Source: a virus
Reading direction: 5' to 3' (one strand)
IMG/VR virus record: IMGVR_UViG_3300025121_000132
Span: 1 to 26,222 of that record
Length of the DNA stretch: 26,222 nt
The stretch's first letter is position 1; every line of letters starts with the position of its first letter. A model generated the notes under the pieces. That model worked only from the letters and a program-made list of their open reading frames with translations, did not search any database and was not told the origin of the DNA. Both the position numbers and the translations under genes were made by a program. Positions 4,238-20,743 of this stretch are shown in pieces.

Positions 4238-4336
4238 ATGATTTCACAAATTCCTAATGGTGGTAAGATATTTATCTTATTATCAATTCTAGCTTTTATA
4301 AGTTTAGTTAATTTATTTTCTAATTTTATTCAATGA
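4238..4336 (+). CDS. 32-residue membrane microprotein
   Basis: A short gene from ATG 4238 to TGA 4334-4336. The peptide starts MISQIPNGGK and then runs through about 20 hydrophobic residues (IFILLSILAFISLVNLF), one transmembrane helix, before ending NFIQ. Its TGA overlaps the ATG of the next membrane protein (ATGA), which indicates translational coupling and supports its reality. It begins a set of membrane and lysozyme-like genes, so a holin or holin-regulator role is possible but not shown. Confidence 0.5.
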   Translation: MISQIPNGGKIFILLSILAFISLVNLFSNFIQ

Positions 4337-4602
4337 ATAATCGTGTATGGAAAGGTATAGGTTATGTAATTTTAGGACTAACAATCCTAATGATTGTTAC
4401 TTCTTTTGTTTTTGCTAACGCTCAAACGGAAGTTGAAAAAGAAGAAATTAGATTTAAAACTTCTTCTGATTTATATTATAAACTTAACGAAGCAACGAAA
4501 ATCGCTTTAGAGACAGCAAAGAAAGATTGTGAAGTCTTAGTAGCGATCAAGAAAAGAGATGGAGAAGAAGTGAAAGGTGAAGATTGTGGTTTAGGTTTTT
4601 AA
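4333..4602 (+). CDS. Membrane-anchored or exported small protein
   Basis: An 89-residue protein with a positively charged start, a hydrophobic helix at residues ~8-28, and FANA followed by QT, a plausible signal-peptidase site near residue 30. The remainder is a charged helical domain with two cysteines (DCEVL and EDCGLGF). The start overlaps the previous gene by four bases. The stop lies 19 bases inside the frame of the lysozyme-like gene, and the last codons read GGT TTT TAA, where a one-base backward slip would fuse it to that gene. On its own it could be a spanin-like or antiholin-like protein; fused, it would be the membrane anchor of the lysozyme. Confidence 0.65.
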   Translation: MNNRVWKGIGYVILGLTILMIVTSFVFANAQTEVEKEEIRFKTSSDLYYKLNEATKIALETAKKDCEVLVAIKKRDGEEVKGEDCGLGF

Positions 4603-5027
4603 TTGCACCGCAAAGTGCCGAAACTACAATTCATTTACTTAATCAGCCTGATTACAAACAGGAACGAGCTGATTATTTATATAAATACGCTCAAGAAAAA
4701 GGATTTAATCATGAACAGGCGAAACGATTAATAGCTCAGATATTCCAAGAAAACGGAGCGATGACGGAAACTAGGCGTGGCGATCAAGGCTGTTCCGTAG
4801 GTTTGATTCAGTGGAACGAATGTGCAAGAGGTAAAATCCCAAGAACTGATTGGCGGGGGCAAATAGAAATATTCGCTAATGAGATCTGGGGTAAATATCA
4901 AATCACTAATAATTTCTCTCAGGCTCAGGTAGCATGGAATCAGCCCTCCGTCCTCAAGTCAGGACAATATAAAACTAAATATTATTTTAAATTACAAAAT
5001 ATTTATAATAAAAATATTATTAAATAA
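4584..5027 (+). CDS. Lysozyme/transglycosylase-like peptidoglycan hydrolase
   Basis: A 147-residue frame from TTG 4584. The hydrolase-like part has a helix with AQIFQENGAM, where Glu56 fits the single catalytic glutamate of lysozyme/soluble-transglycosylase folds, then GDQGCSVGLIQWNE, matching the S-x-GL-I-Q segment that follows it in such enzymes. It should cleave the peptidoglycan glycan strand. There is no ATG before the catalytic residue. Either TTG 4584 is the start, or the protein is made as a -1 frameshift product of the preceding membrane gene; the join would be GLGF-LIAPQSAE. The frame is closed by a TGA at 4578-4580 upstream. The enzyme class is likely; the start is uncertain. Confidence 0.65.
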   Translation: MWFRFLIAPQSAETTIHLLNQPDYKQERADYLYKYAQEKGFNHEQAKRLIAQIFQENGAMTETRRGDQGCSVGLIQWNECARGKIPRTDWRGQIEIFANEIWGKYQITNNFSQAQVAWNQPSVLKSGQYKTKYYFKLQNIYNKNIIK

Positions 5028-5434: not shown

Positions 5435-5947
5435 ATGACAATCGTAACCATACTTGGCAAGGGATATGATGTTGAAACAACAACAGCTCTTAACCTATCG
5501 AGTCAAAACTTAACTGCAATTCCTGAGGGGATTGAGAAGTTGATTAATCTGCAAGACTTGGATTTATGGGGTAATCAGATCAGCGATATATCGAAATTCC
5601 CGATCATGCCGAATCTACAAGTATTGGGGCTAGGGGGTAACCAGATCAGTGATATATCGAAATTCCCGATCATGCCGAATCTGCAAATATTGAAACTAAA
5701 AAATAATCAGATCAGCGATATATCGAAATTCCCGATCATGCCGAATCTACAAATATTAGGGCTAGGGAATAATCAGATCAGCGATATATCGAAATTCCCG
5801 ATCATGCCGAATCTGCAAGTATTGGGGCTATGGGGCAATCAGATCAGCGATATATCGAAATTCCCGATCATGCCGAATCTGCAAGAACTGAACCTAACCA
5901 TAAAGATTGGGTCTGGGGCGAACCTAACCATAAGGGCTGGGTATTAG
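5435..5947 (+). CDS. Leucine-rich-repeat protein with a broken C-terminus
   Basis: A 170-residue protein. Residues 1-36 form an N-terminal cap (TTALNLSSQNLTAIPEGIEK) without a signal peptide, so it should be cytoplasmic. Five 22-residue LRR units follow, starting at bases 5546, 5612, 5678, 5744 and 5810. A sixth breaks off after NLQELNL (from 5876). The remaining residues (TIKIGSGANLTIRAGY) are unlike LRR sequence. The cap seen in the gene at the left edge is absent. In another frame the same DNA continues as a plausible protein end to 6012, so a recombination or frameshift event probably altered this gene. The LRR call is firm; the role, possibly binding a host protein, is inference. Confidence 0.85.
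   Translation: MTIVTILGKGYDVETTTALNLSSQNLTAIPEGIEKLINLQDLDLWGNQISDISKFPIMPNLQVLGLGGNQISDISKFPIMPNLQILKLKNNQISDISKFPIMPNLQILGLGNNQISDISKFPIMPNLQVLGLWGNQISDISKFPIMPNLQELNLTIKIGSGANLTIRAGY
5546..5889 (+). repeat. 66-bp tandem LRR-coding repeats, array 2
   Basis: Five full 66-bp units and a partial sixth share the core of array 1 at the left edge of the window. The block from AATCAGATCAG through TTCCCGATCATGCCG is almost invariant, whereas codons 4, 6, 8 and 9 of each unit differ. It could recombine with array 1 in direct orientation. Confidence 0.9.
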
Positions 5948-7131: not shown

Positions 7132-8172
7132 ATGAAATATTTATCTCTATTCTCTGGAATAGGAGGATTTGAAAAGGCTATACAGGATGTTTTGCCAAAT
7201 GTTGAATGCGTTGGATATAGCGAAATAGATAAATTCGCTATTCAAATTTATCAAAAACACTTTCCTACTCATCATAATTTTGGAGATATAACTCAAGTAG
7301 ATGTTGATGCGCTTTCTGATTTTGATTTATTAGTGGGTGGTTCTCCATGCCAAGACCTAAGTATCGCTAAAAGAGATAGAAAAGGATTAGATGGTTCACG
7401 AAGTGGATTGTTCTATAAATATGTAGAGATTTTACAAAAGAAAAAACCTCGGCACTTTATTCTTGAAAACGTGGCTTCAATGCCAAAAGAGAGCAAGGAT
7501 CAAATCAGTCAAATATTAAACGTTCAGCCTATTATGATCAATGCAGCTTTAGTTTCTGCACAGCAAAGAAAGCGTCTTTTCTGGATCGGTGAATTGATTA
7601 ACAATCAATATAAACAAACGGACATAACGCTTCCAGAAGATAAAAAGATTTTTCTTAAAGATATTTTAATTGATGGAATTGAAACAAAAGAAAAAAGTTT
7701 ATGTGTAACTGCTACTTATTCAAGGGCTTGTCCTAGAGATTATTTTGAAAAACATTCAAGACAATTAATTAAATTAGGTCATTTTAATTCAGGTGGTCAA
7801 GCTGATAGAGTTTATAGTATAGAGGGAAAGTCAGTAACTTTATCAGCTTTGGGTGGTGGCAGAGGTGCTAAAACAGGATTATATTGCATCGCTCAAAGAG
7901 GTAGATACAATCAAGACGGTCTTACAACTCAACAACAACTAGAGCCTCGTTTAGATGGCAAAACTAACTCATTAACTACGGTACAAAAAGACAATTTAAT
8001 TGGGAATGTTGATGTTGACGTATATAGAAAGTTACACCCCATAGAATGCGAAAGATTACAATGCTTGCCTGATGATTGGACGGAAGGACTGAGTAACAGT
8101 CAACGTTATAAATGTTTAGGCAATGCGGTTAATGTTGAAGTGGTTAAGCATATTTTAACTTTCATTAAATAA
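7132..8172 (+). CDS. DNA (cytosine-5) methyltransferase
   Basis: A 346-residue protein with the full set of C5-methyltransferase motifs: I, LSLFSGIGGFE (residues 4-14) for S-adenosylmethionine; II, YSEID near 29-33; IV, GGSPCQDLS with catalytic Cys73; VI, ENV at 112-114; VIII, QQRKRLFWIG (144-153); IX, HPIECERLQCLPDDW; and X, CLGNAVNVEVV near the end. It transfers a methyl group to C5 of cytosine in a short recognition sequence set by the region between motifs VIII and IX, about residues 155-300. No restriction endonuclease is adjacent, so it probably protects phage DNA from host restriction or marks it for regulation. Length and motif order are normal and the gene looks intact. Confidence 0.97.
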   Translation: MKYLSLFSGIGGFEKAIQDVLPNVECVGYSEIDKFAIQIYQKHFPTHHNFGDITQVDVDALSDFDLLVGGSPCQDLSIAKRDRKGLDGSRSGLFYKYVEILQKKKPRHFILENVASMPKESKDQISQILNVQPIMINAALVSAQQRKRLFWIGELINNQYKQTDITLPEDKKIFLKDILIDGIETKEKSLCVTATYSRACPRDYFEKHSRQLIKLGHFNSGGQADRVYSIEGKSVTLSALGGGRGAKTGLYCIAQRGRYNQDGLTTQQQLEPRLDGKTNSLTTVQKDNLIGNVDVDVYRKLHPIECERLQCLPDDWTEGLSNSQRYKCLGNAVNVEVVKHILTFIK

Positions 8173-8231
8173 GCCTAAATAATCTAATGGCATGAAGCCA
8201 ACAATAGTGATTATTTAAGCTTATTTATTTT
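8168..8231 (+). terminator. Long hairpin at the end of the methyltransferase gene
   Basis: Arms 8168-8184 and 8209-8225 are complementary over 17 bases with one C-A mismatch (G-U on the other strand). A nested small hairpin TGGC-ATGAA-GCCA lies at 8188-8200, and TTATTTATTTT follows. The arms include the stop codon of the methyltransferase. It fits a terminator for the + strand unit at the point where the - strand unit converges; a bidirectional role is possible. Confidence 0.6.
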
Positions 8232-8682
8232 GGGTGAGATTTCAGATTACTCACAATATTTTTATATATAAATTATTCAGCCACTATCAATTTAATTGAT
8301 CAAATTAAATTTTAACGATAGAAGGATTTTTTACCTTAACTAACCTAGCCATCTGTAATAAGTTTTTCGGTTAGTGCTTATGAGGGAAGTATTAATATTA
8401 TACTACCTTTTTACGCTTTATTATTTATATAAATATAAACCATCTTCAGAACAAGACGTTCTTATATAATCTTTACAGATTATACGATGTGCGTTAGGAC
8501 TGACGATCCATTTTCCGCCACCGTAAATATTATATTTAAAATGAAAATAAAATCAAGGTTAGAACAAAAGAATGACTACTCGCCAAAATAACAAACCACT
8601 ACATCTCCACTATATGGTTTCGTGGCTTAAATAAAGGATTCTTACATCTTTTTATGAAAACATAGAATAATTTACTACATGA
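8173..8682. other. Hairpin-rich non-coding convergence region
   Basis: About 510 bases between the convergent early (+) and late (-) units, with no convincing gene. Besides the terminator-like hairpin at its left end, I see stem-loops at 8289-8311 (9-bp stem, loop GATCA, perhaps extended by CTATC/GATAG outside it), 8385-8407 (8-bp stem with one mismatch, then five T), 8448-8462 (AGAAC/GTTCT), 8465-8484 (TATAATC/GATTATA) and near 8590-8620 (AAACCA/TGGTTT). A - strand frame at 8421-8552 reads protein-like (GGGKWIVSPNAHRIICKDYI) but has no ATG, GTG or TTG start. It may be a decayed gene, a structured RNA, or a replication or packaging site. Confidence 0.5.
8385..8412 (+). terminator. Weak terminator-like hairpin
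   Basis: Arms GGAAGTAT (8385-8392) and ATACTACC (8400-8407), with one mismatch and a 7-base loop, are followed directly by five T. It could stop + strand transcription that passes the hairpin near 8200. The stem is AT-rich and short, so this is tentative. Confidence 0.35.
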
Positions 8683-8853
8683 TTATTTATTAATCACATC
8701 AATCCCAGCGAATTTAAGTAGCCAAGCGATAGCCGCACAAACAACAAAGATTGTTACGATTGTTAGCACTATTCCTGATAATAGAGGAAGTAGAAAAGTG
8801 ATGATAATATAAAAAACTAAAACTCCTAATAAAATTGATAATAAAGTATTCAT
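8683..8853 (-). CDS. 56-residue membrane protein, holin-like
   Basis: A short frame, from ATG at 8853 to TAA at 8683, of two hydrophobic segments (MNTLLSILLGVLVFYIIITF and LLSGIVLTIVTIFVVCAAIA) with a short polar end (DVINK). Two close transmembrane helices in a tiny protein, placed last in the lysis cassette after an M23 endolysin and another two-helix protein, fit a holin or antiholin. The 17-base spacing from the previous gene suggests one transcript. The precise function is inferred from context. Confidence 0.6.
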   Translation of the reverse strand: MNTLLSILLGVLVFYIIITFLLPLLSGIVLTIVTIFVVCAAIAWLLKFAGIDVINK

Positions 8854-8870
8854 ATGTTTTGATTATTAGA

Positions 8871-9173
8871 TCATGCTTCATCTTGTTCTTTATTTGGTAA
8901 ATTAGCAAGTTTTATTATTGGTTCTTCTGTAATAACTTCTGCGGCACGAGTAGGTATGATTGTTTTTGTAAACTGTGGAGCCAATAAAGCAATAAGAGCC
9001 TTTATGGCACTCCTTAAACAAGCCCCTCCTAGCACCATTAAGGTGGTTGTGTCAAGATCCCCCCTCCATAACGAACCTAGCACAGCAGATTCAAATAAAA
9101 CCATCATGGCGATAAACGTAGTCACAAAAGACTTTACCTCGTCTTTTAAAAATTGTTCTGTTTCGATTGTCAT
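8871..9173 (-). CDS. Putative holin
   Basis: A 100-residue protein with two hydrophobic segments, about residues 17-34 (VTTFIAMMVLFESAVLG) and 45-66 (LMVLGGACLRSAIKALIALL), separated by a short polar turn, and a charged C-terminal tail (LPNKEQDEA). This is a class II holin-like layout. It follows the M23 endolysin by 12 bases in the same transcript, the usual position for a lysis cassette. Holins form membrane lesions that time lysis and release or activate endolysin. The class is inferred from topology and context because holins share little sequence. Confidence 0.65.
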   Translation of the reverse strand: MTIETEQFLKDEVKSFVTTFIAMMVLFESAVLGSLWRGDLDTTTLMVLGGACLRSAIKALIALLAPQFTKTIIPTRAAEVITEEPIIKLANLPNKEQDEA

Positions 9174-9185
9174 AATAAGTATTGG

Positions 9186-9818
9186 TTAAATATTGCTCAT
9201 TGATAGAGCAAATTTTTGTAAAGGTTCAACGTTCAGAATATGATATTTTCTTAAAATCTCTAAAAACCAAGCCTTATCACTATTTATATTTCCATCCTGT
9301 AATAACCCATTATTTAACCAATAGTCTACCGCTTGCTTCTCCCACCCCTTTAATCCTGACACGTCTTGAGCCGTCTCCTGTGCGTTTAACCAAGAAAGCG
9401 GATCAATATATCCTAAATATCCGTTTTTGTAGTTTAAAACGCTTCCCTTGCTGTCGATTTCACGCAATCCGAAATGAAGATGTGCGCCTGTTGAAAACCC
9501 AGTATTACCTGAAATCAAAACGCAATCTCCTTTTTTAACTTTTATCCCAATTTGTTTACAAATAACTTCTTTGCCGTGAGCATAAATTGTCTGAAAGCCG
9601 TTGTGATTGATCCTAATGTAATGACCATAGCCATCCTCATCACAACCTATATAATTCACTACGCCATCATCTACTGTTAAAATTGGTGTACTTTCTGGAA
9701 TTGCGAAATCTAAACCGTTATGACCTGCTAAATTAAACTGAGAATAAAGTTGTGGATTCTCACCAAAATATTGTGAAATCCTAAATTCATTTTCGAAAGG
9801 ATAAGATATGTTTTTCAT
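9186..9818 (-). CDS. M23-family metallopeptidase endolysin
   Basis: A 210-residue protein. Residues ~15-140 are a lysostaphin-type peptidase M23 domain: HNGLDF gives zinc ligands His33 and Asp37, YAHG carries His81, and GAHLHFG carries His113 and the third zinc ligand His115. All active-site residues are present. Residues ~155-210 (GLKGWEKQAVDYWLNNGLLQ and on) form a small helical domain resembling an S-layer-homology or cell-wall-binding unit. There is no signal peptide, so release needs a holin, and holin-like genes follow. It should cut peptide cross-links of peptidoglycan at lysis. A virion-associated role is a less likely alternative. Confidence 0.93.
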   Translation of the reverse strand: MKNISYPFENEFRISQYFGENPQLYSQFNLAGHNGLDFAIPESTPILTVDDGVVNYIGCDEDGYGHYIRINHNGFQTIYAHGKEVICKQIGIKVKKGDCVLISGNTGFSTGAHLHFGLREIDSKGSVLNYKNGYLGYIDPLSWLNAQETAQDVSGLKGWEKQAVDYWLNNGLLQDGNINSDKAWFLEILRKYHILNVEPLQKFALSMSNI

Positions 9819-9827
9819 AATTTAGAA

Positions 9828-10265
9828 TTAAGATGTGAGATTAGTGGTAAAGCCAATAATCCCTAAAATAATAAATGTTATGATCGCTCCTATTAATCCT
9901 CCCCATAATTTTTGATATTTACCATCTTTTATAATAATCATTAAATCTTTTTTTGTTACCATATTTTCTTTTAATGTTAAAGTCTCAACTATATTATTTT
10001 TAAGTTTTTCTGTTTCTTTGCCATAATTTTGTAAAAACTCATTAAATTTAGCCATCATTTCATCAAGTTTTTGAGGGATTAAATTAAAAGGTATAATTTG
10101 CTTTTCTAATGAAGCCAGTCGTTCCGAAAGAGATAATTCTAGCACTTGTATTCTATTATAAATATCATGTTTAGCTTCATGGAGCTTTAAGAGATCAGAT
10201 TTAAACTCTTCATGATCTTTTAAGTTTTGATCTAATTTATCTTTCTGTAAGCATGGATTTGACAT
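9828..10265 (-). CDS. Coiled-coil protein with C-terminal membrane helix
   Basis: A 145-residue protein starting at MSNPC; the in-frame ATG at 10307 lies inside the previous gene. Residues ~5-110 are helical with coiled-coil heptads (LDQNLKDHEEFKSDLLKLHE). The C-terminus is one transmembrane helix (LWGGLIGAIITFIILGIIGF). The layout resembles XhlA/hemolysin-type or other small lysis-cassette proteins, and it lies directly upstream of the endolysin in transcription order. It could tether the endolysin or regulate the holin; this is inference from topology and position. The start is one base after the previous gene's TGA, indicating coupling. Confidence 0.6.
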   Translation of the reverse strand: MSNPCLQKDKLDQNLKDHEEFKSDLLKLHEAKHDIYNRIQVLELSLSERLASLEKQIIPFNLIPQKLDEMMAKFNEFLQNYGKETEKLKNNIVETLTLKENMVTKKDLMIIIKDGKYQKLWGGLIGAIITFIILGIIGFTTNLTS

Positions 10266-10266
10266 T

Positions 10267-11331
10267 TCATAAATATAGTTTATATAACACGTCTGGGGCT
10301 CTATCATTCAATCCATACACCGTATTAACCTCGCCAAATCCTGCCATGAATTTAGTTGTTGCCCCGAAATTATGATTAGAAGTTGATTGCTGTGTTCCAG
10401 CAAAATTATATTTAAAATAATCTGTAGCGGTACTTACATAAATATAATTAGTATTCGCTCCTATTGCACCACCAAAACTTGGTGTCCCCGCTAAAGCAAA
10501 ATCTGATGCGGAATCTAACGTTGTTCCATTAATTGTAAGTCTTCGTATATCATAATCATTAGCTGTATTCCCTGCTTGTTTCGTGAAAAATAAATAAGTG
10601 CCATCAGTAAACATGTAAGTCGCATCTGTCGTCCCGAAACCTGCATATGTCATTTGAGTCCCACCTGCCGCTAAGTCATCTTTATCGTATCTATACACTC
10701 TATGCAATGGAGCTCCATTATCTCTTAATAATACATATAAATAATCGCCTATTACAGCGACCCCTCTAATAGCATCCGCAGCCGCCCAATCTGAAGTAAT
10801 AGCTCTTATATCTGGTGCACTATTAACATGATACATAGTTAATGAAGTCGTGTAAGCGTTAGGGATATGTTCTGTGTTGTCGGTATAATAAGGCATTGTA
10901 TCAGTGGGGTTATTTTGATCCCAGAACCAAGGAGCTGGCAACCCGAAAATTCCTTGATCGAAAAAAGAATTATTTGGCTTACTCATTAACTGGAAATTTG
11001 TACCATCATGAGTTAAAATTACAACCTGTCCATTCCTAATTGTACTAGGAGAAATTTCATTTCCACTTACATCTTTAATGGCGGTCGCCCCTATTGTATT
11101 AACATTAACGGTGCATGCTCCAGTATTGGCAAAATTAGCTTTAAATTTAATTGTAAGTCCAGCTTCATAGGCTGTAATCTGTGCATCAATAGCCACGACA
11201 TAAGCATTCGCTGAACCTGTGGACACGACATAATCACCACCACACACTAATACGTCTTTACGAAGATTATTAAAGTGAGTAGCAAGAATATCCTGACCTA
11301 AAGTTACCTGTGATGAATCAAGAACACTCAT
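10267..11331 (-). CDS. Tail fibre or receptor-binding-like protein
   Basis: A 354-residue protein. Residues ~34-116 form a domain frequent in phage tail fibres (G-x-x-I-x-FKANFANTGACTVNVN...GATAIKD, then G-x-VVILTHDG-x-x-F-x-L). After a Pro/Asn-rich linker (~118-165), residues ~170-354 contain repeated strand sets (GDYLYVLLRDN, GTYLFFTKQ, NYIYVSTATDYFKYNFAG), suggesting beta-propeller-like blades. It should form a distal tail structure that contacts the host surface. It lies between a tail-collar-like protein and the lysis cassette, the usual place for such genes. The C-terminal fold is inferred by eye. Confidence 0.7.
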   Translation of the reverse strand: MSVLDSSQVTLGQDILATHFNNLRKDVLVCGGDYVVSTGSANAYVVAIDAQITAYEAGLTIKFKANFANTGACTVNVNTIGATAIKDVSGNEISPSTIRNGQVVILTHDGTNFQLMSKPNNSFFDQGIFGLPAPWFWDQNNPTDTMPYYTDNTEHIPNAYTTSLTMYHVNSAPDIRAITSDWAAADAIRGVAVIGDYLYVLLRDNGAPLHRVYRYDKDDLAAGGTQMTYAGFGTTDATYMFTDGTYLFFTKQAGNTANDYDIRRLTINGTTLDSASDFALAGTPSFGGAIGANTNYIYVSTATDYFKYNFAGTQQSTSNHNFGATTKFMAGFGEVNTVYGLNDRAPDVLYKLYL

Positions 11332-11333
11332 GA

Positions 11334-11897
11334 TTAAGAGAAAGTAAATGTAGATTCTACTGTTAGCGTTTCAGTTACTGCCTTGGAAACTGAAATTAAA
11401 AAACGTGAAAATAACTGCCCTGTATTAGCACTTGCAGCGCCATCAATAAACCAGCCTGCTTCTGCATAAGTACCCGAAGTTTCAGTTGCAGTGTAGAAAT
11501 TACTTATATAGGCTATATTGCTTGCTGATGTTTGACTTGACGTAGCTTTTCTGTACGTCTCAGTCCCAAGTGTTGTGTTACTATTAGCTGGCGAAGCGCT
11601 ACCTGAGCCTAAAGCCCCATAATTAATAATTCCTGTATAAGTAGTAGTATTAGCTAGTCTTTGAGCTAGTACTGATCTTCCTGCCGTAGGAATAATATTT
11701 TCATATAATGTTTCTCTTTTTTGACAATGTTTTTTAAATTCTGTCCAGTGATATTGAAAAGCTTCCCATGATAAATTACCTTGACCAAGGATCTGTTCAA
11801 GTTCTTTAGCTATTTTATTTAAAGGTTTGCAAATCACGAAATTATGCAGTCCTTTAATTCCTGCTAGTTCCTTGTTTTTTCGTAAATGATTGAGCAT
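11334..11897 (-). CDS. Distal tail/baseplate-type structural protein
   Basis: A 187-residue protein. Residues 1-65 are helical and charged. From about residue 69 the sequence fits a tail domain common in siphophages: IIPTAGRSVLAQRLAN, then INYGALGSGSASP, and TLGTETYRK. Short strands continue to the C-terminus (ETLTVESTFTFS). Similar proteins lie just upstream of tail fibres and help attach them. It follows the large hub protein after a 75-base gap with a hairpin, and ends two bases before the fibre gene. I call it structural with fair confidence but cannot give the exact position in the tail. Confidence 0.65.
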   Translation of the reverse strand: MLNHLRKNKELAGIKGLHNFVICKPLNKIAKELEQILGQGNLSWEAFQYHWTEFKKHCQKRETLYENIIPTAGRSVLAQRLANTTTYTGIINYGALGSGSASPANSNTTLGTETYRKATSSQTSASNIAYISNFYTATETSGTYAEAGWFIDGAASANTGQLFSRFLISVSKAVTETLTVESTFTFS

Positions 11898-11932
11898 AAG
11901 CCAAGAGATTATGAACCTCTGGGGCTTCTACT
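11898..11932 (-). promoter_or_regulatory. Intergenic hairpin and conserved motif, copy 1
   Basis: Just upstream of the start at 11897, AAGCC (11898-11902) pairs with GGCTT (11923-11927), with an inner AGAG/CTCT. The segment 11911-11932 matches 20 of 22 bases with 20734-20755 (shared core ATGAACCTCT, then one variable base, then GGGCTTCTA). Shared intergenic placement in the late unit suggests a regulatory or RNA-processing signal. Confidence 0.45.
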
Positions 11933-11972
11933 ATTAGAAGTATACTTAGAAAAACAAAAGTAATCAATATTT

Positions 11973-14900
11973 TTATTCGTAAGCACCGACTCCATATACT
12001 GTTTGAGATTTTGTTGCGTCTGTTGTATACATATAATCAAATAAAACATCACCAGACGCTGTTGTATCTGTAGTATTAACAGTAAGATATTGTAATGTAA
12101 TTGTTTGAATATTCGTGATATCAAAACTTCCTGACTCAATATAGTCAGGATCGGTTAATTTAAATTTAATTTGACGCCATAATTCAGACACGGCAAGATA
12201 ATCATTTAAATTCAAAAATACTCGATAATCCAATAAAGGATTAGTCGCATGACTCGAAAAATAAATTCTTAAATCTTTAATTTTAGCTTTTACCGAATTA
12301 TCTTTTACCTTAAACCAATAATTTATAAATTTATCCGTTAAATTAACAGGGCTAGCTAAGTTAATATACATATAAGTGCCAGCAGATACAGCCGTTTTAT
12401 TTAATGATAATGAGGCTGTTGTATCAATGTGTTCATCGGTTACTGTTGTAATCGTACCATTAACCGCAGTCCAACCGCCTGCAACATCTAAACCGTCAAT
12501 AATATCACTAGCACTTTCAGGCTGGTATTTGTTGGTTTTATCCTTTTCCGTCTCATCACTGGAAGTTGTTGTTTGTGTCTCAGTTGATGTTACCTGTTCA
12601 GTCGCTCCTGTTGTATGGCTTTCACTTATCGTTATAATAGGAAATTCGCTTTCGACTAATTCAATCACAGCGTTATCAACAACAAAAGCCCCTGATATAG
12701 TTGTAGACAATTTTTGGAAATATTCGATTATTCCAAATAAAGTGGTAGCACAAGTAACTTTGCATTTCATGTAATCTTGATTGTATTGTTTGGCTACTTT
12801 CTGAATTAATAATTCTTCAAACATAACTTTATTTGAATCTTTGATTGTCATTAATTGCCCTGCTTTTAATCCATCAAAATCAGTATCAAAATTAATTGTA
12901 ACAACAGGATTCTTATATTGATCTACTTCTGCCCTTGCCCTATCTCTAGCGGCAGTCCTTGAATCCAAACTATTGTCATCAATCTTAGCTCCATCGAATT
13001 GACCGTCCCCATGTCCTAATAACAACCTCATTCTTGTAATTGACGTATTGTCTTTATATTGAGTTACAATATCAATTTTTTCTGTATATGTAAATAAAAG
13101 GAAATCGGAAGTGGTAAGTGTTGTAGTGGCATCAGTTGCTCTAATAGACTTTTCAGAGAAATTCGAGACATAATTTACGGTTGTTTCATCAACTAAATTC
13201 TCCACTCCAACGGTTTGAGTTGATGCGAATTTAGAAAAAGTGTCACCATTAGTTTGGCTCGTTACAGCTTCAACAGTGAAATTATCATCATTAACTTTTG
13301 TGATTTGTCTAACGGCATTTGATCTTGTTCTATTAACAATATAATCACCTGTAATTAATGCGTGTGCTGTGGCTGTAATATTAGTTGTGGTAGTTCCGCC
13401 TTCACAAGTATCTATACTAGTATTATTATCTAATTTAATAACTAAATTCTTAAATTTATTCTTTAATATCCATTCCCTAACTGCATTATCGCCTTGAACG
13501 ACTTGTGAATAAGTAGAAGCTGAATCTTCTGTCCCACCTGCTACAGTTTGAGCATTTTTCAATTGTGAAGTGTCAATATTAACACTTATATTATCACCAT
13601 TATAGAATTTATTTGAAGCTTCAAGCATCCAGATAGAATCTATCGTTACATCAGGATCATTATTTGAATGAGTAAATTGAAAATCTACTTTCCGTATTAC
13701 TCCCCAGTCTGGAAGTCCTGTTGAAGTAAAAGCGGACTTAGCAATTAATAGTTTATTATATCCAAGTTTTAAATTCGTAGTCCAACTATAACTAAAATAA
13801 TCCACGCCTGAATTAGTTGAAAAGATTAAATCAATTGAAGTTGGTACTGTGTTCTCAATATATACATGAATCATTATACGATCACTAGTAGGACTTGTAG
13901 TGCCGTCTTCTCTTGTGCTTAGATTATAAGTTCCTGTGATAGTTGTTGGCGTTGCACTTGTAACAGTTTTCTGTGATTTATTCGCTGTAATGTACCATTT
14001 ATCATTGTTAGATAGAGTCCAGCCACTCTCACTCATGTCAAACAATAACTGTGAGCCATCTGATAATTGCCACGGCGCAGAGTCGCTATCCATTGATTTG
14101 AAATGTATATCCCTATCATAATCAATATACCAAAAATAAGAATTGAGTTTAGCGAGAGCATCTATTGTCGCCGTTGGTCTTTGAAAAGGAGCGGCGAAAC
14201 TATCTAAAGTTGCACCAGCTTCAAGATTAAAGAAAGTAAAGAAATCATCTTCATAAATTCGCCAATTATCTATTGTAATTATTCCGCTTGCTGTTTGATC
14301 TATAGCTAAAGCAATTCTAATTATAGCCGTCCAATCAACCGTTCCAGCTGTAAAATCAGCAGTTTTTGACATGTCAATTTCACAAAAATGCCAATTACCA
14401 TCAGGAAATATAGGAGTTAAATACCAACCTTTCATGTTTGTAATTGCGGCATCACTAGAACAATATAATCTAATAGATGTAATAATATTAGTTGATGGGA
14501 ATTTAATCCATAATCCCATTTTACCTTTTGTCGGCTGTCCAGAACTTACTCCCACATACGAAGAATAATCTGTACTAGATAATGTTAATCTATAATCTGC
14601 TGCTCCACTGGCATACACCCAAGAAAAAACACCTGATGATGTCCCATTACCATTAATTATGTCATTTGTATTAATAATAGGTAACGCGGCATCATTAATT
14701 ATTCCCCATGCGGATTGAATTGCTCCATCATTAGCATAATCCATCGTATCTATAATCATATTCATGTTGTTCAGGTCTTCGGTTACGAACCCCACTATTA
14801 TCTGTCTTGCGTTTTTATTTTCCCAGCTGTCATTAACCTCTTTTCTGTCAAATTCTTTTGTGAAATCGATACACTGCACGCTATACGCCACATTTTCCGA

Positions 14901-15353
14901 TAAAACATTTGTCGAAATTCCCACATTCTGCACAACACCACCAAAAATCTTTTCGCCTGCGTATTCTCCTGCACTATGAGCAGAAACAGCAGCACTTTCT
15001 AATGTTATATTTATATTATTTCCACTCTCAACTAAAGATGAAATAGTTACTTTCTCTTCTGTGCTTAATCCTATACCAAGCCATATCTCCTGATTTGCTC
15101 TAAGTTTATAATGAGTAATAATGTCTATATCAGATAATGTTTTCTTTTTAACCACTAAAGCCGTGCCTGAATAAGAAATAATTTCAAAAGCATCAAAAAT
15201 CTTAATTTCTTGATTATCTATAGGCTGGTCTCCTCCAACAATTATATCAAATCCGCAAGTATTAGCCTTATTCTGCACTTGCTCAACTATCTTTAAGCTT
15301 CTTGTGCTTACATAAGACGAGATGTCAACGTCAGCAAGGTAAAGTTTAATCAT
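11973..15353 (-). CDS. Large tail-tip/baseplate hub protein
   Basis: A 1126-residue protein directly downstream of the tape measure in transcription order, the usual place of the siphophage distal-tail and tail-associated proteins. Residues 1-200 are strand-rich and resemble hub domains: IFGGVVQNVG, then YSVQCIDFTKEFDRKEVNDS and a helix with ARQIIVGFV. Central parts contain lectin- or Ig-like strand repeats (~250-380 and ~480-590) and a TAHALITGDYI module near residue 665-705 shared with the gene at 22625. The end is another strand-rich domain. There is no peptidase motif that I can see. It should cap the tail tube and carry the fibres. Role by context and N-terminal pattern. Confidence 0.75.
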   Translation of the reverse strand: MIKLYLADVDISSYVSTRSLKIVEQVQNKANTCGFDIIVGGDQPIDNQEIKIFDAFEIISYSGTALVVKKKTLSDIDIITHYKLRANQEIWLGIGLSTEEKVTISSLVESGNNINITLESAAVSAHSAGEYAGEKIFGGVVQNVGISTNVLSENVAYSVQCIDFTKEFDRKEVNDSWENKNARQIIVGFVTEDLNNMNMIIDTMDYANDGAIQSAWGIINDAALPIINTNDIINGNGTSSGVFSWVYASGAADYRLTLSSTDYSSYVGVSSGQPTKGKMGLWIKFPSTNIITSIRLYCSSDAAITNMKGWYLTPIFPDGNWHFCEIDMSKTADFTAGTVDWTAIIRIALAIDQTASGIITIDNWRIYEDDFFTFFNLEAGATLDSFAAPFQRPTATIDALAKLNSYFWYIDYDRDIHFKSMDSDSAPWQLSDGSQLLFDMSESGWTLSNNDKWYITANKSQKTVTSATPTTITGTYNLSTREDGTTSPTSDRIMIHVYIENTVPTSIDLIFSTNSGVDYFSYSWTTNLKLGYNKLLIAKSAFTSTGLPDWGVIRKVDFQFTHSNNDPDVTIDSIWMLEASNKFYNGDNISVNIDTSQLKNAQTVAGGTEDSASTYSQVVQGDNAVREWILKNKFKNLVIKLDNNTSIDTCEGGTTTTNITATAHALITGDYIVNRTRSNAVRQITKVNDDNFTVEAVTSQTNGDTFSKFASTQTVGVENLVDETTVNYVSNFSEKSIRATDATTTLTTSDFLLFTYTEKIDIVTQYKDNTSITRMRLLLGHGDGQFDGAKIDDNSLDSRTAARDRARAEVDQYKNPVVTINFDTDFDGLKAGQLMTIKDSNKVMFEELLIQKVAKQYNQDYMKCKVTCATTLFGIIEYFQKLSTTISGAFVVDNAVIELVESEFPIITISESHTTGATEQVTSTETQTTTSSDETEKDKTNKYQPESASDIIDGLDVAGGWTAVNGTITTVTDEHIDTTASLSLNKTAVSAGTYMYINLASPVNLTDKFINYWFKVKDNSVKAKIKDLRIYFSSHATNPLLDYRVFLNLNDYLAVSELWRQIKFKLTDPDYIESGSFDITNIQTITLQYLTVNTTDTTASGDVLFDYMYTTDATKSQTVYGVGAYE

Positions 15354-15370
15354 AAAATATAATAAGATAT

Positions 15371-15442
15371 AGGACTCAAAATCCTAACAATATTATTATA
15401 CTATAAAAAAAATAATTAAATAATAATAATTCAAATTATTTT
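15371..15442 (-). terminator. AT-only hairpin and T-run upstream of the hub gene
   Basis: On the - strand an 11-base A/T arm (AAAAAATAATT) pairs with AATTATTTTTT across a 16-base loop, and a few more T follow; next comes a small TAGGA/TCCTA hairpin at 15371-15387. It could end the transcript of the small membrane gene at 15443-15610 or lower expression of the hub. All-AT stems are weak, and chance is a real alternative in this AT-rich DNA. Confidence 0.25.
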
Positions 15443-15610
15443 TTATTTATTTTCTATGATTTCGATATTTGTAATTATATAGTTAATATTCCAAAAAAAG
15501 AATAAAGGAGAAAGTAACCCATAACTAACTACACTAAGGATTAACAATCCAATATTAATTAACAAATACTTCCACCATATACCATTAAACTTTAATGTGT
15601 GTGTTTTCAT
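15443..15610 (-). CDS. 55-residue membrane protein between tape measure and hub
   Basis: A short frame from ATG 15610 to TAA 15443. It reads MKTHTLKFNGIWWKYLLINI, then a hydrophobic helix (GLLILSVVSYGLLSPLFFFW), then a polar end with NIEIIENK. The KFNG-x-x-W-x-Y start, a helix with a G-x-x-x-P turn and a terminal strand recall one unit of DUF898-type bacterial membrane proteins; the likeness is short and tentative. It lies alone in a ~285-base gap within the tail operon, where a membrane protein is unexpected. Confidence 0.5.
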   Translation of the reverse strand: MKTHTLKFNGIWWKYLLINIGLLILSVVSYGLLSPLFFFWNINYIITNIEIIENK

Positions 15611-15637
15611 ACATAATACATACCACTAAATTACGAT

Positions 15638-18478
15638 TTAAGCAACCGCAAAATGCCGTTTTAGAATTGATATAATCGGATCACCTATTTTTTCAATCAC
15701 ATCGTTTTTATCCAAAACGTTATTCCCCGAAATATAAAGATTAATGGTGTTCCCGCCTAATTTGTTATTTGGTACAACATCAGAACCGCGCGGCAATCGC
15801 ACCATCTCAGCCCCCTGTTCTCCCACCATCGCCAATCCGCCACTAAAATTAGTAACACCATTAGCAAATTTTGGTATATCTAAATTTTTTACTGTTTTTC
15901 CGCTACCTGTATTTTGCATTGTACTAGAAAGTTCTTTGAATTTATCAATCATTTTATTAATAGAATCAACAGTCTTTTTTTCTTGACTTTCGACATAACT
16001 AGTAAACAATTCAGTGGCTTCTTTAGATTGAGTAACTATAGTGTTTCTTAATCTCAAATAAGCATCTTCTTCTGTCTTAATTGCTTTAAGCGTTTCCTCT
16101 TTATTGAGATTTAATTTTGCTAAAGCATCATCATAATCCTTTTGTCGTTCAATTTGTTGGTTTTTATAATCTTCTACAATCCTTTCAAAATCTGTTAGCC
16201 TTCCTCTGCGTCTAGCCTCCCTAACTTCATTATCAATTGATAAAATTAAATCTTTATTTCGTGTTAAGGCCGCTTGCTCAACAACTAAAGAATTTTTTAA
16301 ATCACTAAGCTTGTTATAATCCATTTCATCTCGTTTTTTCTTTTTCTCTTCTTCAATTTGTTCTTGGATGTCAGCAATTTTCTTTTCCTGTTCAACTACG
16401 TCTTCACCTAACTCTTGTCTTGCTTGCGTTTGATCATCCTGAAACGCACCCATCAATTCTTTAATATCCTGATTAACGCTTCTTAATTCTTCACGTAAAT
16501 CAGCAAGTTTTTCACTGTGATCTCTAATAACTGTTTGAAGCACCGCACTAACAGTTTCCTGAAAATCACCATATTGATCTTGTAAATCTTGTAAAGCTTT
16601 TTGTGCCTTTTCAGCGCCGTCTTTCAGCGAACCGCCACCTCCTCCACCTCCGCCCAAGCCCGCCGCCAATTTACCTGTTTCATCGCTAGTTTCTTTTGTT
16701 GTATTTTTTAAGTTTTGTAAGAATTTATCAAATCCTGATACTTCTTCTCCTGTAGTTACCGCGGCCGTTCCACTACTGTCCAGCCCCATTTTCAAACCAT
16801 CTAAATTAAATGATATGGGTGTAATAGACGCTCCCAGTTCATTAAGTTTGTTGATTAAAGAGTTGATAGGGGCAATAGCTAATTGTACGCCTGAATTAAA
16901 TAATTCCACTATATTATTCCACATTCCTTGAGCCATATTAACTGCTCCATTCTTAATTCTTTCCCAGTCACCAGTCATTAATCCTGCGAATATTTCCATA
17001 ATTCCTCCTAAAAGCTCTACACCAAAGTTAAACCAAAAAGTAACTTTATTCCATAAAAAACTTACTATTGCAATAATTGTATCTCCCCAATCCTCCCACA
17101 TCATTTGAAAAAACTCTAATCCCGCCTTAAATAATGACACTACTACGTCCCATGTTGATGTTATTGCTTTCCATGTTTTTTTCCACGTGGGTTCAATAAT
17201 TTTCCAGATTGGCTCAAATGCTTCAAGAAATTTAATTAATAGTTGTTTCGATTCGTTAAGAAAACTTTTAAGTGGTGTTTTCTGTAAACTAATATTCTTC
17301 AATGCTAATTCTACTGCTTGCAATCCTACTTCTCCATTTTTTGTCATTTTTACTACTTCCTTTTCAGTTACATTGAATTGTTTAGCTAATTCAGCTAATA
17401 ATGGTACATTGTTTTTAACAAAACTTTGCATTACATCATCAGTTAATTTATTTGCGTCTTTTACTTTTAAGAAAGAATCAATTAGTGTTTGTAAATTAGC
17501 GTCCATATCTACGGCAACGTCTTGCAGTAATACCATAGTAGGAAGAAAAGAAGCAGCTGATCCACCTACCGCAACAAATGCTTCAGCTGTCTTTGTCGCA
17601 TTCACTCCCATATTTAACATTGAAATTGCAATCTCATCAGCAGTTTGTTTTAAAGGGGTAAATGAAGCAAGTGAGTTCTGTCTAAAATTAGTAAAAGCTG
17701 TATTAATCATAGTTAAACCTTCCGTCAAAGGTGGTATCAATCCTGCTCCCAATTCTCTAGCCGCTAAAACAAAATTATCTTTTAAATTTGAGATTTGTCC
17801 TAAAAAGGTTTGATTTTGAGCTTGCATCATATTATAGAATCGTCCGCCCTCACTAGTCATATCAATAAATGCTTGTTCAACGGCCGCAAAACTTATTGCC
17901 CCTTCTTCAACCATTTTTTTAATTTGTGCTTCTGTTTTGTTAAATTGTTCTGCTAATTGAGATAATAAAGGAACACCATTATTAACGAATTGCCTTAATT
18001 CTGTTCCGTATAATTGATTTGCAGTTTTTACTTGTCCAAATGCTAAGGCTATATTCCCAATAGGAACAGATAAGCCAGCCGCCACATCTCCTAACATTGA
18101 CATTGTAGACACAACCTTTTCAGCTTCAATTCCCATAGCTAATAATAATTTAGCGTTCTGTTCAACGTCTGGAAGTGTAAATGGTGTTTTCGCCGCCAAT
18201 TCTGATAATTGTCCTAAAAGTTCCATCGCTTTTTCTCCACTACCTAACATTGTTGTAAAAGCCATTTGTGTTTGTTGGAATTTCGCTGCTTCACGAATAG
18301 ACAAAGCCCCTGCTGCAACTATCGCAGTACCAATAGCCGCAATAGCAATAGCCGCATTCCTGCCTATATTTTGGATTGGATTAATAGCAGACGCAAATTG
18401 TTTATTAAAATCATTTAATCCTTTACTGGCATTATTTTTGAGTTCTATTAATATCGAAGCTTTTGCGTCATCTGCCAT
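15638..18478 (-). CDS. Tail tape measure protein
   Basis: A 946-residue protein. Residues ~35-60 are hydrophobic (NAAIAIAAIGTAIVAAGALS). Residues ~65-215 match the tape-measure N-terminal domain (EAAKFQQTQMAFTTMLGSGE, then LSVPIGNIALAFGQV and FVNNGVPLL). A similar segment recurs at ~351-395 (SFVKNNVPLLAELAKQFN), an internal duplication. A hydrophobic/Trp-rich part (~420-540) follows, a glycine run near 615, a long coiled coil (~630-820), and the usual end SGGLAMVGEQGAEMVRLPRG. It sets tail length and is ejected with the DNA. At the usual ~1.5 angstrom per residue it implies a tail of about 140 nm. The start overlaps the gpGT stop (TAATG). Confidence 0.95.
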   Translation of the reverse strand: MADDAKASILIELKNNASKGLNDFNKQFASAINPIQNIGRNAAIAIAAIGTAIVAAGALSIREAAKFQQTQMAFTTMLGSGEKAMELLGQLSELAAKTPFTLPDVEQNAKLLLAMGIEAEKVVSTMSMLGDVAAGLSVPIGNIALAFGQVKTANQLYGTELRQFVNNGVPLLSQLAEQFNKTEAQIKKMVEEGAISFAAVEQAFIDMTSEGGRFYNMMQAQNQTFLGQISNLKDNFVLAARELGAGLIPPLTEGLTMINTAFTNFRQNSLASFTPLKQTADEIAISMLNMGVNATKTAEAFVAVGGSAASFLPTMVLLQDVAVDMDANLQTLIDSFLKVKDANKLTDDVMQSFVKNNVPLLAELAKQFNVTEKEVVKMTKNGEVGLQAVELALKNISLQKTPLKSFLNESKQLLIKFLEAFEPIWKIIEPTWKKTWKAITSTWDVVVSLFKAGLEFFQMMWEDWGDTIIAIVSFLWNKVTFWFNFGVELLGGIMEIFAGLMTGDWERIKNGAVNMAQGMWNNIVELFNSGVQLAIAPINSLINKLNELGASITPISFNLDGLKMGLDSSGTAAVTTGEEVSGFDKFLQNLKNTTKETSDETGKLAAGLGGGGGGGGSLKDGAEKAQKALQDLQDQYGDFQETVSAVLQTVIRDHSEKLADLREELRSVNQDIKELMGAFQDDQTQARQELGEDVVEQEKKIADIQEQIEEEKKKKRDEMDYNKLSDLKNSLVVEQAALTRNKDLILSIDNEVREARRRGRLTDFERIVEDYKNQQIERQKDYDDALAKLNLNKEETLKAIKTEEDAYLRLRNTIVTQSKEATELFTSYVESQEKKTVDSINKMIDKFKELSSTMQNTGSGKTVKNLDIPKFANGVTNFSGGLAMVGEQGAEMVRLPRGSDVVPNNKLGGNTINLYISGNNVLDKNDVIEKIGDPIISILKRHFAVA

Positions 18479-18711
18479 TATCTAAAATTAGATTTAGTTG
18501 AATTTTTATTATTTTTTTTATTTTTTTTGTTATATTCCTCTCCCTCAATATTCAGAAACTTTTTCCACATATTTAAAGTTTTTACATCTTGCTCATCATA
18601 CTCAATAGGAGTCCAGCCAAACTCTTTACAAATAGTATATTTAATATATTCAGGCGGAACTGAACCTTTACCTACTTGCAGATATTTTCTTATTTGCTGT
18701 TCTATTGCAGG
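18478..18711 (-). CDS. gpT-type tail chaperone extension made by -1 frameshift
   Basis: This frame has no start of its own; it is entered by a one-base backward slip from the gpG gene at the five C (bases 18710-18714 on + as G). After CCC the ribosome would read CCT GCA ATA, giving PAIEQQIRKYLQVGKGSVPP, then ICKEFGWTPIEYDEQDV and a Lys/Asn-rich end, about 77 residues, to TAA at 18478-18480. The fusion with gpG would be about 182 residues. gpG and gpGT chaperones bind tape measure and tail-tube subunits during tail assembly, and a -1 shift directly before the tape measure gene is a well-established arrangement in siphophages. The TAA overlaps the tape measure ATG. Very well supported by position and frame. 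Confidence 0.85.
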   Translation of the reverse strand, partial: PAIEQQIRKYLQVGKGSVPPEYIKYTICKEFGWTPIEYDEQDVKTLNMWKKFLNIEGEEYNKKNKKNNKNSTKSNFR

Positions 18712-19025
18712 GGGAGGTCTTGCCCTATTCCTGCAATTTTATCTATTTCTTTAAGGATTTTAACTGAATCGGGTTTTGAAATATAATCAAAAATATCGTC
18801 ATTAATCTCTATATTTTTCTGATTAATCATTAATGATTCGATCATATTAAGCATCTTATATCCTTCTACTTTAGCATTCTTAATCATCACTTCCGCCATA
18901 TTAGTTAGCTTTGGCTGTCCTTTTTCATCTATTTCCATCCCTTCCATAAACATTTCTTGAGTTTTATCCCAAAGTCGTTTAGGGAATATAGATTTAAGAG
19001 TTACCTCTCCATTTTGTAATTTCAT
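18702..19025 (-). CDS. Tail assembly chaperone (gpG-like)
   Basis: A 107-residue protein. The N-terminus (NGEVTLKSIFPKRLWDKTQE) and helical remainder with IFDYISKPDSVKILKEIDKI fit the first tail chaperone of siphophages. It lies between the major tail protein and the tape measure gene. It ends in GIGQDLPLQ and TAG, and the last codons span a run of five C where a fraction of ribosomes should shift to make the longer gpGT form. The 111-base leader contains a strong hairpin (19068-19096). The family is called mainly from position and the frameshift arrangement, since these proteins vary greatly in sequence. Confidence 0.85.
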   Translation of the reverse strand: MKLQNGEVTLKSIFPKRLWDKTQEMFMEGMEIDEKGQPKLTNMAEVMIKNAKVEGYKMLNMIESLMINQKNIEINDDIFDYISKPDSVKILKEIDKIAGIGQDLPLQ

Positions 19026-19067
19026 AAAGATAAGCAGTTATTAATAAAAGTGAGCTAGTTTTTGATC

Positions 19068-19096
19068 CCTCCTGTAGTTTTTTAGGCTACAGGAGG
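19068..19096 (-). promoter_or_regulatory. Perfect 10-bp hairpin between major tail protein and chaperone
   Basis: CCTCCTGTAG (19068-19077) and CTACAGGAGG (19087-19096) form a perfect stem with a 9-base loop. Neither strand has a T-run after it, so it is not a standard terminator. It lies about 43 bases upstream of the chaperone start and may be an RNA-processing or stability element that separates high expression of the major tail protein from low expression of the chaperone. Confidence 0.6.
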
Positions 19097-19136
19097 AAAG
19101 TAAAAATGGGAAACTGCTCAAGAAAACCCAAGTTTA

Positions 19137-20696
19137 CTAATATGTAGCGGTTGCATTTCTAAGTCTAACTTTTGCCATACTTGATAAATTGCCAGTACCT
19201 TGACCTGCCCTGTCATGATCAGAAGTAAATTTAAGTTCTTCTGTTATTAGTCCATCACTAATAGGTAATTCTATTGGTTGTAATTTAGCGTTTGGTATAT
19301 CTATTCTTAACATTGTTTTCTCGCTTGCATCTCTACCCCCTGAAAAATTCTTTTTAAGTGGTGAAGTCATGTCGGTGTTATCTGCTGTCGTTACCAAGTC
19401 CGAACCAGTTGAAGCACAAGCCACGCCAGTCAAGGCGTGAATAGCAGCGGCAACTAAAGTTGTGGTATTATTAGCCGCTACAGCGTCTAGAGTAAGAGTT
19501 ATATTTTTCCCACTTAATGCTGCAGCTAAGGCAGCACCTCCTCCAACTATAGTAAGATTATAATCATTGCCAGCTTCACCAGTTGCATCAACTGTAACGC
19601 TTGCAGTACCAATTCCATCTGTTTCAATTGTTAAACTTGCAGCAGCGGCCGCATTTGAAGCTAAAGCGTCACCTAAGAATTTAATTCTTAATCCTAACGA
19701 ATCTTTTGATCTTAGAGCATCAACAAAATCAGGATTAGCATGTAAATGAGATAAAGTAATATCCGAAACATCAAATCCTAAAAGGTTGATCCTTGACGGC
19801 ATTCTATCAACTACATCATTTCCAGTAGCAGCATTCTCAGCTTCTAAATTATTTGTAAATTCACAAGAAAAATTAGTCATGTCTGAAGTAGCAGTTGTAT
19901 TGTCAACTGGATTTGTAGATGTACCAACTGATATTTCCGCACCTCCAGTAAATATAAATTCAGATCCAAGTGCTGTATAACTAGGGCTTGCATTTCGTTT
20001 TATTACTACTACATCACCGACAGCCAAAGAAACGGCGATTGTTTCAACCGTAGTCAATGTCGTTTCTGTAGGTACAGCCGATAATGTATAAGTAGCCAAG
20101 ACTGTATCTTGATTATCAGCGTCTAATACCTGAATAGTATCACTTGTAGTTATTCCACTTGTTTGATCTAATGTTAAAGTTGTTCCTGTTGCAATAGCAA
20201 CTGTCAACCGTGCATTCACAAACCATCTCTGAGCCATGAATCCAACAGTCCAATCAGCTCGATTGTCATTAATAGCAAGAGCTAATTTTGAAATTCTACA
20301 TCCGAAATATCTAGTTATATAATCTTCACCACCAACAGCGAAATCTAAAGTATAAGAATCTTGTGTGTTTTGGGGCTGAAAATCATGTTGATAAATCCCA
20401 GTTGCTAGAGTTGAAGCCGTCTCATCACCAAAACAACCATTTAACAAATGCCCTGAAATAGTAGGTTCTGCTGGTAATGATACTTCAAGTTCTGCTGGTT
20501 CATACGCTCCAATATATGAACGTGTGTTTAAAGATCTATTCCCTTGTACTGTATTGGTTTTAGCAATATTCCAAGGATTTGGAAGTGTCGTTTCAAGAAA
20601 TTCAGCAAAAGTGTCTGGATATACCGCCGCTCCTGCTGTAGTTTCTTTTTTAAAAGCTAGATAGCCACGTTTACCATATGAGACTGAGTTTGACAT
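19137..20696 (-). CDS. Major tail (tube) protein with inserted domains
   Basis: A 519-residue protein immediately upstream of the gpG/gpGT chaperones, the standard place of the tail tube subunit. The N-terminus (GKRGYLAFKKETTAGAAVYP) fits the start of tail tube proteins: strands, then TISGHLLNGCFGD and YFGCRISKLALAI. Residues ~165-240 look like an inserted beta-domain (TVAIATGTTLTLDQTSGITT). A second segment at ~360-450 (ASVTVDATGEAGNDYNLTIV and on) resembles a module common in phage virion proteins. The end returns to tube-like strands (MLRIDIPNAKLQPIELPISD). At 519 residues it is long for a tube protein, consistent with surface insertions. Confident by context; the inserts are read by eye. 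Confidence 0.85.
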   Translation of the reverse strand: MSNSVSYGKRGYLAFKKETTAGAAVYPDTFAEFLETTLPNPWNIAKTNTVQGNRSLNTRSYIGAYEPAELEVSLPAEPTISGHLLNGCFGDETASTLATGIYQHDFQPQNTQDSYTLDFAVGGEDYITRYFGCRISKLALAINDNRADWTVGFMAQRWFVNARLTVAIATGTTLTLDQTSGITTSDTIQVLDADNQDTVLATYTLSAVPTETTLTTVETIAVSLAVGDVVVIKRNASPSYTALGSEFIFTGGAEISVGTSTNPVDNTTATSDMTNFSCEFTNNLEAENAATGNDVVDRMPSRINLLGFDVSDITLSHLHANPDFVDALRSKDSLGLRIKFLGDALASNAAAAASLTIETDGIGTASVTVDATGEAGNDYNLTIVGGGAALAAALSGKNITLTLDAVAANNTTTLVAAAIHALTGVACASTGSDLVTTADNTDMTSPLKKNFSGGRDASEKTMLRIDIPNAKLQPIELPISDGLITEELKFTSDHDRAGQGTGNLSSMAKVRLRNATATY

Positions 20697-20712
20697 ATTT
20701 TAAATGTTAATA

Positions 20713-20743
20713 ATAAAAAGAGGTTCATTGTGCATGAACCTCT
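20713..20743 (-). terminator. Rho-independent terminator upstream of the major tail gene
   Basis: Arms AGAGGTTCAT (20719-20728) and ATGAACCTCT (20734-20743) are perfectly complementary with a 5-base loop. On the - strand the stem is followed by TTTTATTATT. It lies 17 bases before the major tail gene, so it may separate the head/connector transcript from the tail transcript or act as an attenuator. The right arm is part of the 22-base motif also present at 11911-11932. Confidence 0.7.

Follow-up and report, generated by a model that had tools for sequence, protein, structure and literature searches.

Gene organization at the locus

The window, by which we mean the whole 26,222-base stretch of virus record IMGVR_UViG_3300025121_000132, derives from an uncultivated bacterial virus. 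Positions 4238 to 5027 of the window contain the following features:

4238..4336, + strand: ORF for a 32-aa peptide with a single transmembrane segment (KD19 maximum 2.21, one hydrophobic segment)
4333..4602, + strand: frame-0 ORF of 89 codons, encoding the short, 89-aa product, with an N-terminal hydrophobic segment
4575..4580, + strand: AGGTGA, Shine-Dalgarno-like, 3 nt upstream of TTG 4584
4584..5027, + strand: lysozyme-like ORF in the -1 frame, whose first start codon is TTG; relatives align from about 4653
4594..4602, + strand: candidate -1 slip site A_GGT_TTT_TAA, including the frame-0 stop; the counterpart in the related virus L060 is G_GGT_TTT_TAG
4605..4618, + strand: weak hairpin, GCAC-6 nt-GTGC, 5 nt past TTT; shuffled sequences form equally strong ones

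The 32-aa ORF (4238-4336) overlaps the 89-aa ORF (4333-4602) through the sequence ATGA, as described in the initial annotation. The accompanying suggestion that the peptide is coupled to the membrane gene agrees with this overlap in the window but finds no parallel in relatives, as the stretches directly preceding the L041 and L060 genes discussed below showed no counterpart of the peptide. The 89-aa ORF reaches a KD19 maximum of 2.38, with the best 19-residue stretch beginning at residue 9; the hydrophobic segment is followed by an AXA-type motif (ANA-Q; a signal-peptidase motif read by eye), and behind this lies a region with Cys66 and Cys85 and the C-terminus D-C-G-L-G-F-stop. The ORF does end in GGT TTT TAA (4594-4602) inside the lysozyme-like -1 frame (4584-5027), as had been noted.

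The lysozyme-like frame had been described as lacking an ATG. One does exist, at 4761 and thus at residue 60; however, this sole ATG lies past the candidate catalytic residue Glu56, which is invariant, so that the whole enzyme cannot start there and the description holds in substance. Two cysteines of the same frame, Cys70 and Cys80, also occur in L041 and L060. A -1 slip would produce one joined frame, as had been proposed; the joined product comprises 231 residues rather than about 235, of which the 142-residue C-terminal part is added after the slip.

Relatives of the locus

Single-protein scans of viral contigs recovered nothing for the lysozyme or for the 89-aa ORF, and the corresponding nuclease scan recovered one distant nuclease. 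An alignment scan of genome contigs gave 53 pattern matches, none of them confirmed, and that of viral contigs gave 9 cyanophage-type loci at about 28-33% identity. The DNA-pattern scan of genome contigs returned 4 loci, among which only L054 had a match, short and weak; in viral contigs it returned 32 stretches, with L041 alone scoring as a close relative. A follow-up scan using the window and L041 yielded L041 again and nothing further, and the last pattern scan yielded three stretches, L041, L060 and L059. The patterns that found L041 and L060 were degenerate DNA patterns based on the active-site motif; L059 was set aside, none of its 21 listed ORFs being lysozyme-like by eye. Against named phages the lysozymes gave at best weak matches and neither of the membrane ORFs gave any; plasmids gave two weak matches. 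No phage match was obtained for the tail protein; the terminase had 162 matching records, all at under 60% identity (about 26% in the 15 listed), and no tRNA genes were found in five related loci.

L060 (IMGVR 3300029959_000227) is a virus whose tail genes match those of the window, with segments at 27-65% identity (e.g., 59%, 49%, 34%). Its layout is that of the window: a membrane ORF, here of 115 aa, followed by a lysozyme in the -1 frame. The 115-aa ORF has a hydrophobic N-terminus, cysteines 79 and 110, and the C-terminus K-C-E-A-M-G-F-stop, and the junction reads G GGT TTT TAG at the position matching GGT TTT TAA in the window. Conservation of the T run among relatives, a check proposed in the initial annotation, is thus borne out in L060. 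The two lysozymes are 35% identical; BLAST finds no similarity between the membrane ORFs (E 2.8), which reach 25% identity in a forced MAFFT alignment. The surroundings of the junction have thus drifted, by one codon even between the last Cys and Gly-Phe, and GGTTTTTA has stayed. The site is conserved beyond its surroundings in the one split relative found (1/1). Between the site and the part of the enzyme that aligns mutually lie 39 residues without Met in L060 and 20 in the window, Met-free stretches such as a tether would have.

The closest lysozyme found, 56% identical to that of the window, is in L041 (IMGVR 3300033186_000020). Here a single ATG-started frame of 193 codons holds a hydrophobic segment, a linker of about 45 residues and the lysozyme, and the slip site is absent. 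As a single-frame fusion, L041 indicates that a joined membrane-lysozyme product makes sense. No other ATG-started protein of the window or L006 (at least 60 aa) has a match in the L041 record at E<=1e-3. The comparison therefore comprises two split cases, the window and L060, and one fused case, L041. Neither of the two relatives found has a separated, ATG-started lysozyme gene, an arrangement that had been named as contrary to a fused product; the ATG of L060 sits inside the overlap.

A fused relative had also been named as a possible sign of an assembly indel, and we consider it highly improbable that an indel introduced by assembly or sequencing, or else a recent frameshift mutation, has split what is truly a one-frame gene. 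L041, being in one frame, is in line with such an origin, and homopolymer runs are typical places for indels. However, the diverged L060, in another record, has an identical split at an identical sequence. In addition, a second assembly, G001 (IMGVR 3300025073_000115), matches window positions 7201-26222 at 99.1-99.8% and shows 0 homopolymer indels in 19.0 kb containing at least 130 A/T runs of length 5 or greater, a comparison that begins at window position 7201 and so excludes the lysozyme and the slip site. The repeated split in L060 and the indel-free homopolymers of these 19.0 kb make an artefact unlikely. The sole gap in the 19.0 kb is a 14-nt intergenic stretch at about 15421-15434, present in the window and absent from G001.

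Other features were observed in these records. The window contains leucine-rich-repeat genes at 1-339 and 5435-5947, with 66-nt tandem repeats at the DNA level (4.2 and 5.2 copies), and L041 and L060 have repeat-protein genes near the lysozyme (AGDIDAWNI-type, ankyrin-like and VRTQVEDQ-type; by eye). L006 is a near-identical, longer record. Within L006:6724-10407, a 933-aa ORF has an N-intein-like end (NCFIAGSRVLT...) and a 96-aa ORF a C-intein-like end (...KVKNC-RGI), with an HNH-like ORF on the opposite strand between the intein-like halves, giving the look, by eye, of a split intein. L006:11790-12638 encodes an IS1595-family transposase, up to 43% identical to plasmid-borne copies among the matches listed; these plasmids come from many genera.

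The proposed slip site and its rarity

In the window, a -1 frame stop sits 14-16 nt ahead of GGT, which confines any slip to the last six codons before TAA. By inspection, T TTT TAA is the only place in these six codons where one-base-back re-pairing, of TTT, is perfect. The window thus has both an overlapping downstream ORF in the -1 frame and a site for re-pairing. The conventional heptamer X XXY YYZ is matched by G_GGT_TTT of L060 and not by A_GGT_TTT of the window; the PEMV site GGAUUUU is a working exception to this heptamer, and for the window the claim is accordingly limited to a site that works like these, as opposed to a textbook member of the class.

The rarity of the site was assessed among 107 gene ends from the window, L006, L060, L061 and L062, in which genes were called as the longest non-overlapping ATG ORFs of at least 70 aa; 4761-5027 is a false call within this set, and one gene is counted from two overlapping records. 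TTTTTAR ends the gene in frame in 6/107 cases and GGTTTTTAR in 2/107, namely the window and L060 junctions; the chance that two given genes are the two GGTTTTTAR ones among 107 is 1.8e-4. After TTTTTAR the -1 frame stays open for 142 codons in the window and 154 in L060, as compared with 2, 3, 7 and 38 in the other four genes. If the C-terminal Gly-Phe is kept for reasons of the protein, AT-rich DNA would tend to encode it by GGT and TTT in any case, and the shared site would weigh less.

A wider survey considered 424 TTTTTAR sites in 63 sequences, on both strands and with some loci overlapping. Five pass a filter of at least 40 codons open before the site and at least 60 after it in the -1 frame: the window site twice (once as L001), the L060 site once, and two sites in L023. 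The two L023 candidates are shadows: their -1 frame is that of an ordinary gene and has already been open for 147 and 302 codons where the site is reached, as compared with 6 codons for the -1 frames of the window and L060.

Codon-usage scores change frame at the junction. In the window, frame 0 scores +0.15 up to the site and frame -1 scores +0.25 thereafter; in L060 the corresponding values are +0.24 and +0.28 (with a training set of 32 ORFs that includes the 115-aa ORF itself), and in both viruses the other frames are negative. The frame -1 score refers in each case to the first 60 nt past the site.

The two viruses differ in their downstream structure. In the window it is no better than in mononucleotide shuffles (z +1.2 to -0.6), whereas in L060 it is more stable than such shuffles (z about -1.8 to -3.0); no downstream stimulator conserved between the two was found. 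A downstream pseudoknot was considered and rejected: by eye, the L060 hairpin loop could pair with a later stretch, and nothing similar was noticed in the window.

Slippage of the polymerase, instead of the ribosome, along the T5 run would make a fused mRNA and the identical protein. The T run is kept in both split viruses, the window and L060, as transcriptional slippage would have it; however, the adjacent stop codon and the GG shared ahead of the run are left unaccounted for, and a run of five T is short for a polymerase to slip on efficiently. We give this explanation a very small chance.

Possible separate initiation of the lysozyme

Two separate proteins could also be made if the lysozyme were initiated within the overlap, at TTG 4584 in the window or at the ATG in L060, whether by ribosomes finishing the 89-aa ORF or by fresh ones; the enzyme would then be cytoplasmic and would need a holin. 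Start codons do precede GGT in both -1 ORFs, the ATG by 13 nt in L060 and the TTG by 10 nt in the window, AGGTGA stands 3 nt before TTG 4584, and long overlaps with internal starts may recur in the window virus (e.g., 363-803 with 775-1128). However, both start candidates fall on a Cys codon, which by itself makes NTG in the -1 frame, and they differ in kind and by one codon in their position relative to the site, whereas the slip site itself is common to both viruses. The closest lysozyme homologue, that of L041, is joined to a membrane segment, and a cytoplasmic start would not explain the long tether of L060 or the shared Cys pair.

The Shine-Dalgarno-like motif can be read in two ways. From its position, AGGTGA (4575-4580) could serve TTG 4584 or could stimulate a slip 13 nt downstream; L060 has no such motif at the matching place. 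Motifs of this kind precede only 4/107 called genes, which argues that AGGTGA is not the usual start signal of these viruses; the 107-gene set, being restricted to ATG starts, is uninformative on the use of TTG. Gene leaders in the window, L006, L060, L061 and L062 are A/T-rich, and the host may not rely on Shine-Dalgarno starts. On balance, we regard separate initiation as unlikely.

Identity and possible export of the lysozyme-like domain

We refer to the 4584-5027 product as lysozyme-like. Its match to PF18013 (Phage_lysozyme2) is weak, at 20.7 bits and below the curated cut-off of 28.2; the match spans residues 28-82, taking in the Glu and the GD-G-GL-QW stretch. The L041 protein scores 16.3 bits against the same family, and 2/3 homologues have a match at E<=1. 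Cyanophage tail lysozymes are about 30% identical to the window ORF. The predicted fold has low confidence (pLDDT 60.6), and a Foldseek search with this model gave no match at E<=0.001. In VIA-align comparisons with the low-confidence model, chitinase 3w6e (Z 5.9, rmsd 4.4, 106 aligned) and goose lysozyme 153l (Z 5.1, rmsd 4.0, 106 aligned) are within the four best rows, though not above the unrelated ones (6.0 and 5.2).

The Cys pair common to the three lysozymes fits an exported enzyme, and the shared Cys70/Cys80, together with the fusion in L041, suggests that the enzyme acts outside the cytoplasm. The lysozyme fusion probably has at least one other lysis enzyme beside it, as an M23 peptidase is encoded in the window (Pfam E 2.3e-20) and an M23-like ORF was recognized by eye in L060. 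The M23 peptidase of the window adjoins a 100-aa hydrophobic protein (8871-9818, - strand), and this pair likely represents late lysis genes. The fusion might, for example, aid lysis, change the cell wall on infection, or exclude other phages.

Comparison with known systems

The closest parallels to the junction are found among stop-adjacent -1 frameshift sites of the luteovirus and umbravirus kind. G_GGT_TTT_TAG of L060 is the same heptamer as that of the luteovirus BYDV (GGGUUUU followed by UAG), with the stop directly after it (PMC4737148). The window's A_GGT_TTT_TAA resembles the weaker case, the umbravirus PEMV, in that it likewise keeps only the perfect re-pairing of UUU (PMC4737148). 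That study reports that changing UAG to UCG after the BYDV slip site dropped frameshifting to background, and that the PEMV site GGAUUUU works although only UUU re-pairs perfectly, with 36-40% of frameshifting left when P-site re-pairing was blocked; its authors doubt that pausing by a stop just past the site helps in itself (PMC4737148). In E. coli, U-run heptamers are described as much less shifty than A_AAA_AAG (PMC5009743). Unlike the luteovirus and umbravirus sites, those described here belong to a DNA virus with tail genes, lack a strong conserved downstream structure, and would give a lysozyme fusion rather than a polymerase.

The lambda gpG/gpGT tail assembly chaperone is likewise a phage -1 frameshift that adds a part without its own start, although the gene, its function and the slip sequence all differ here. 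The window virus likely has a second, classic -1 frameshift of this kind: in a tail assembly chaperone pair at 18480-19025 (- strand), a 107-aa ORF ends CTC CCC CTG CAA TAG, the -1 frame is open to 18480, and the extension at 18483-18708 matches phrog_9001 (4.7e-8). In the SEA-PHAGES set of PRFect, tail assembly chaperones account for 2397/2476 annotated joined frameshift genes, and the same work also names lysins as genes in which a frameshift is known, with a Lactococcus phage lysin made up of two overlapping genes among its references (PMC10885494). The latter, as cited in PRFect, is similar in being spread over overlapping genes (PMC10885494).

As compared with phage tail lysozymes of PF18013, the window fusion is on a membrane protein and lies at a distance from the tail genes. 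A lysozyme combined with an N-terminal membrane segment is also found in SAR endolysins and holin-endolysin cassettes. The fusion resembles SAR endolysins in this respect, having an N-terminal hydrophobic segment, with the difference that the parts are joined by a proposed frameshift and that an AXA-like motif suggests possible cleavage. In relation to holin-endolysin cassettes, the window virus encodes a separate M23 peptidase on the opposite strand, adjoining a small hydrophobic protein.

Among the matches listed in searches of titles and abstract starts of open-licence literature, no description of a frameshift that fuses a lysozyme to a membrane protein was recognized, and the first 300,000 of the 475,107 characters of the review PMC5009743 do not mention lysozyme, endolysin or spanin. 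As phage frameshifting and an overlapping-gene lysin are already known, the proposed stop-adjacent joining of membrane protein and lysozyme would be a variant of these.

A proposed frameshift and its significance

We propose, with a probability of roughly 0.7, that -1 ribosomal frameshifting at a stop-adjacent site appends a predicted exported, membrane-tethered lysozyme to the product of the 89-aa ORF. The site shared with L060, the fusion in L041 and the switch in codon usage support this reading, which had been suggested from the window alone. Translation in frame 0 would yield an 89-aa membrane-inserted, extracytoplasmic protein. At GGT TTT TAA, some ribosomes would move back one base, UUU re-pairing with the UUU beside the stop codon, and would read on in the -1 frame to add the 142-residue C-terminal part. 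The Phe tRNA may slip alone in the P site while the stop occupies the A site, or the Gly and Phe tRNAs may slip in tandem; the protein would be the same either way. In the 231-aa product, the membrane segment would carry the lysozyme-like domain across the membrane and anchor it there, or the domain might be released if signal peptidase cuts at ANA-Q. One gene would thus give the plain membrane protein and, more rarely, a version of it extended by a peptidoglycan-cutting domain. From these sequence comparisons we infer the slippage and its rate, the export, the enzymatic activity, and the role beside the late M23-peptidase genes.

With about even confidence, we further suggest that the conserved GGU_UUU_UAR -1 frameshift acts as a dosage switch, setting the share of the exported membrane protein that carries lysozyme, in uncultivated tailed phages of a lineage that lacks Shine-Dalgarno leaders, and that the tethered wall-cutting enzyme is made apart from the late lysis genes. 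If the proposed frameshift is true, the locus would represent a rare case of recoding that controls both the export and the dosage of a cell-wall enzyme. The joined product would be one that gene callers miss, and the lack of a usable start codon would not by itself mark a gene as defective.
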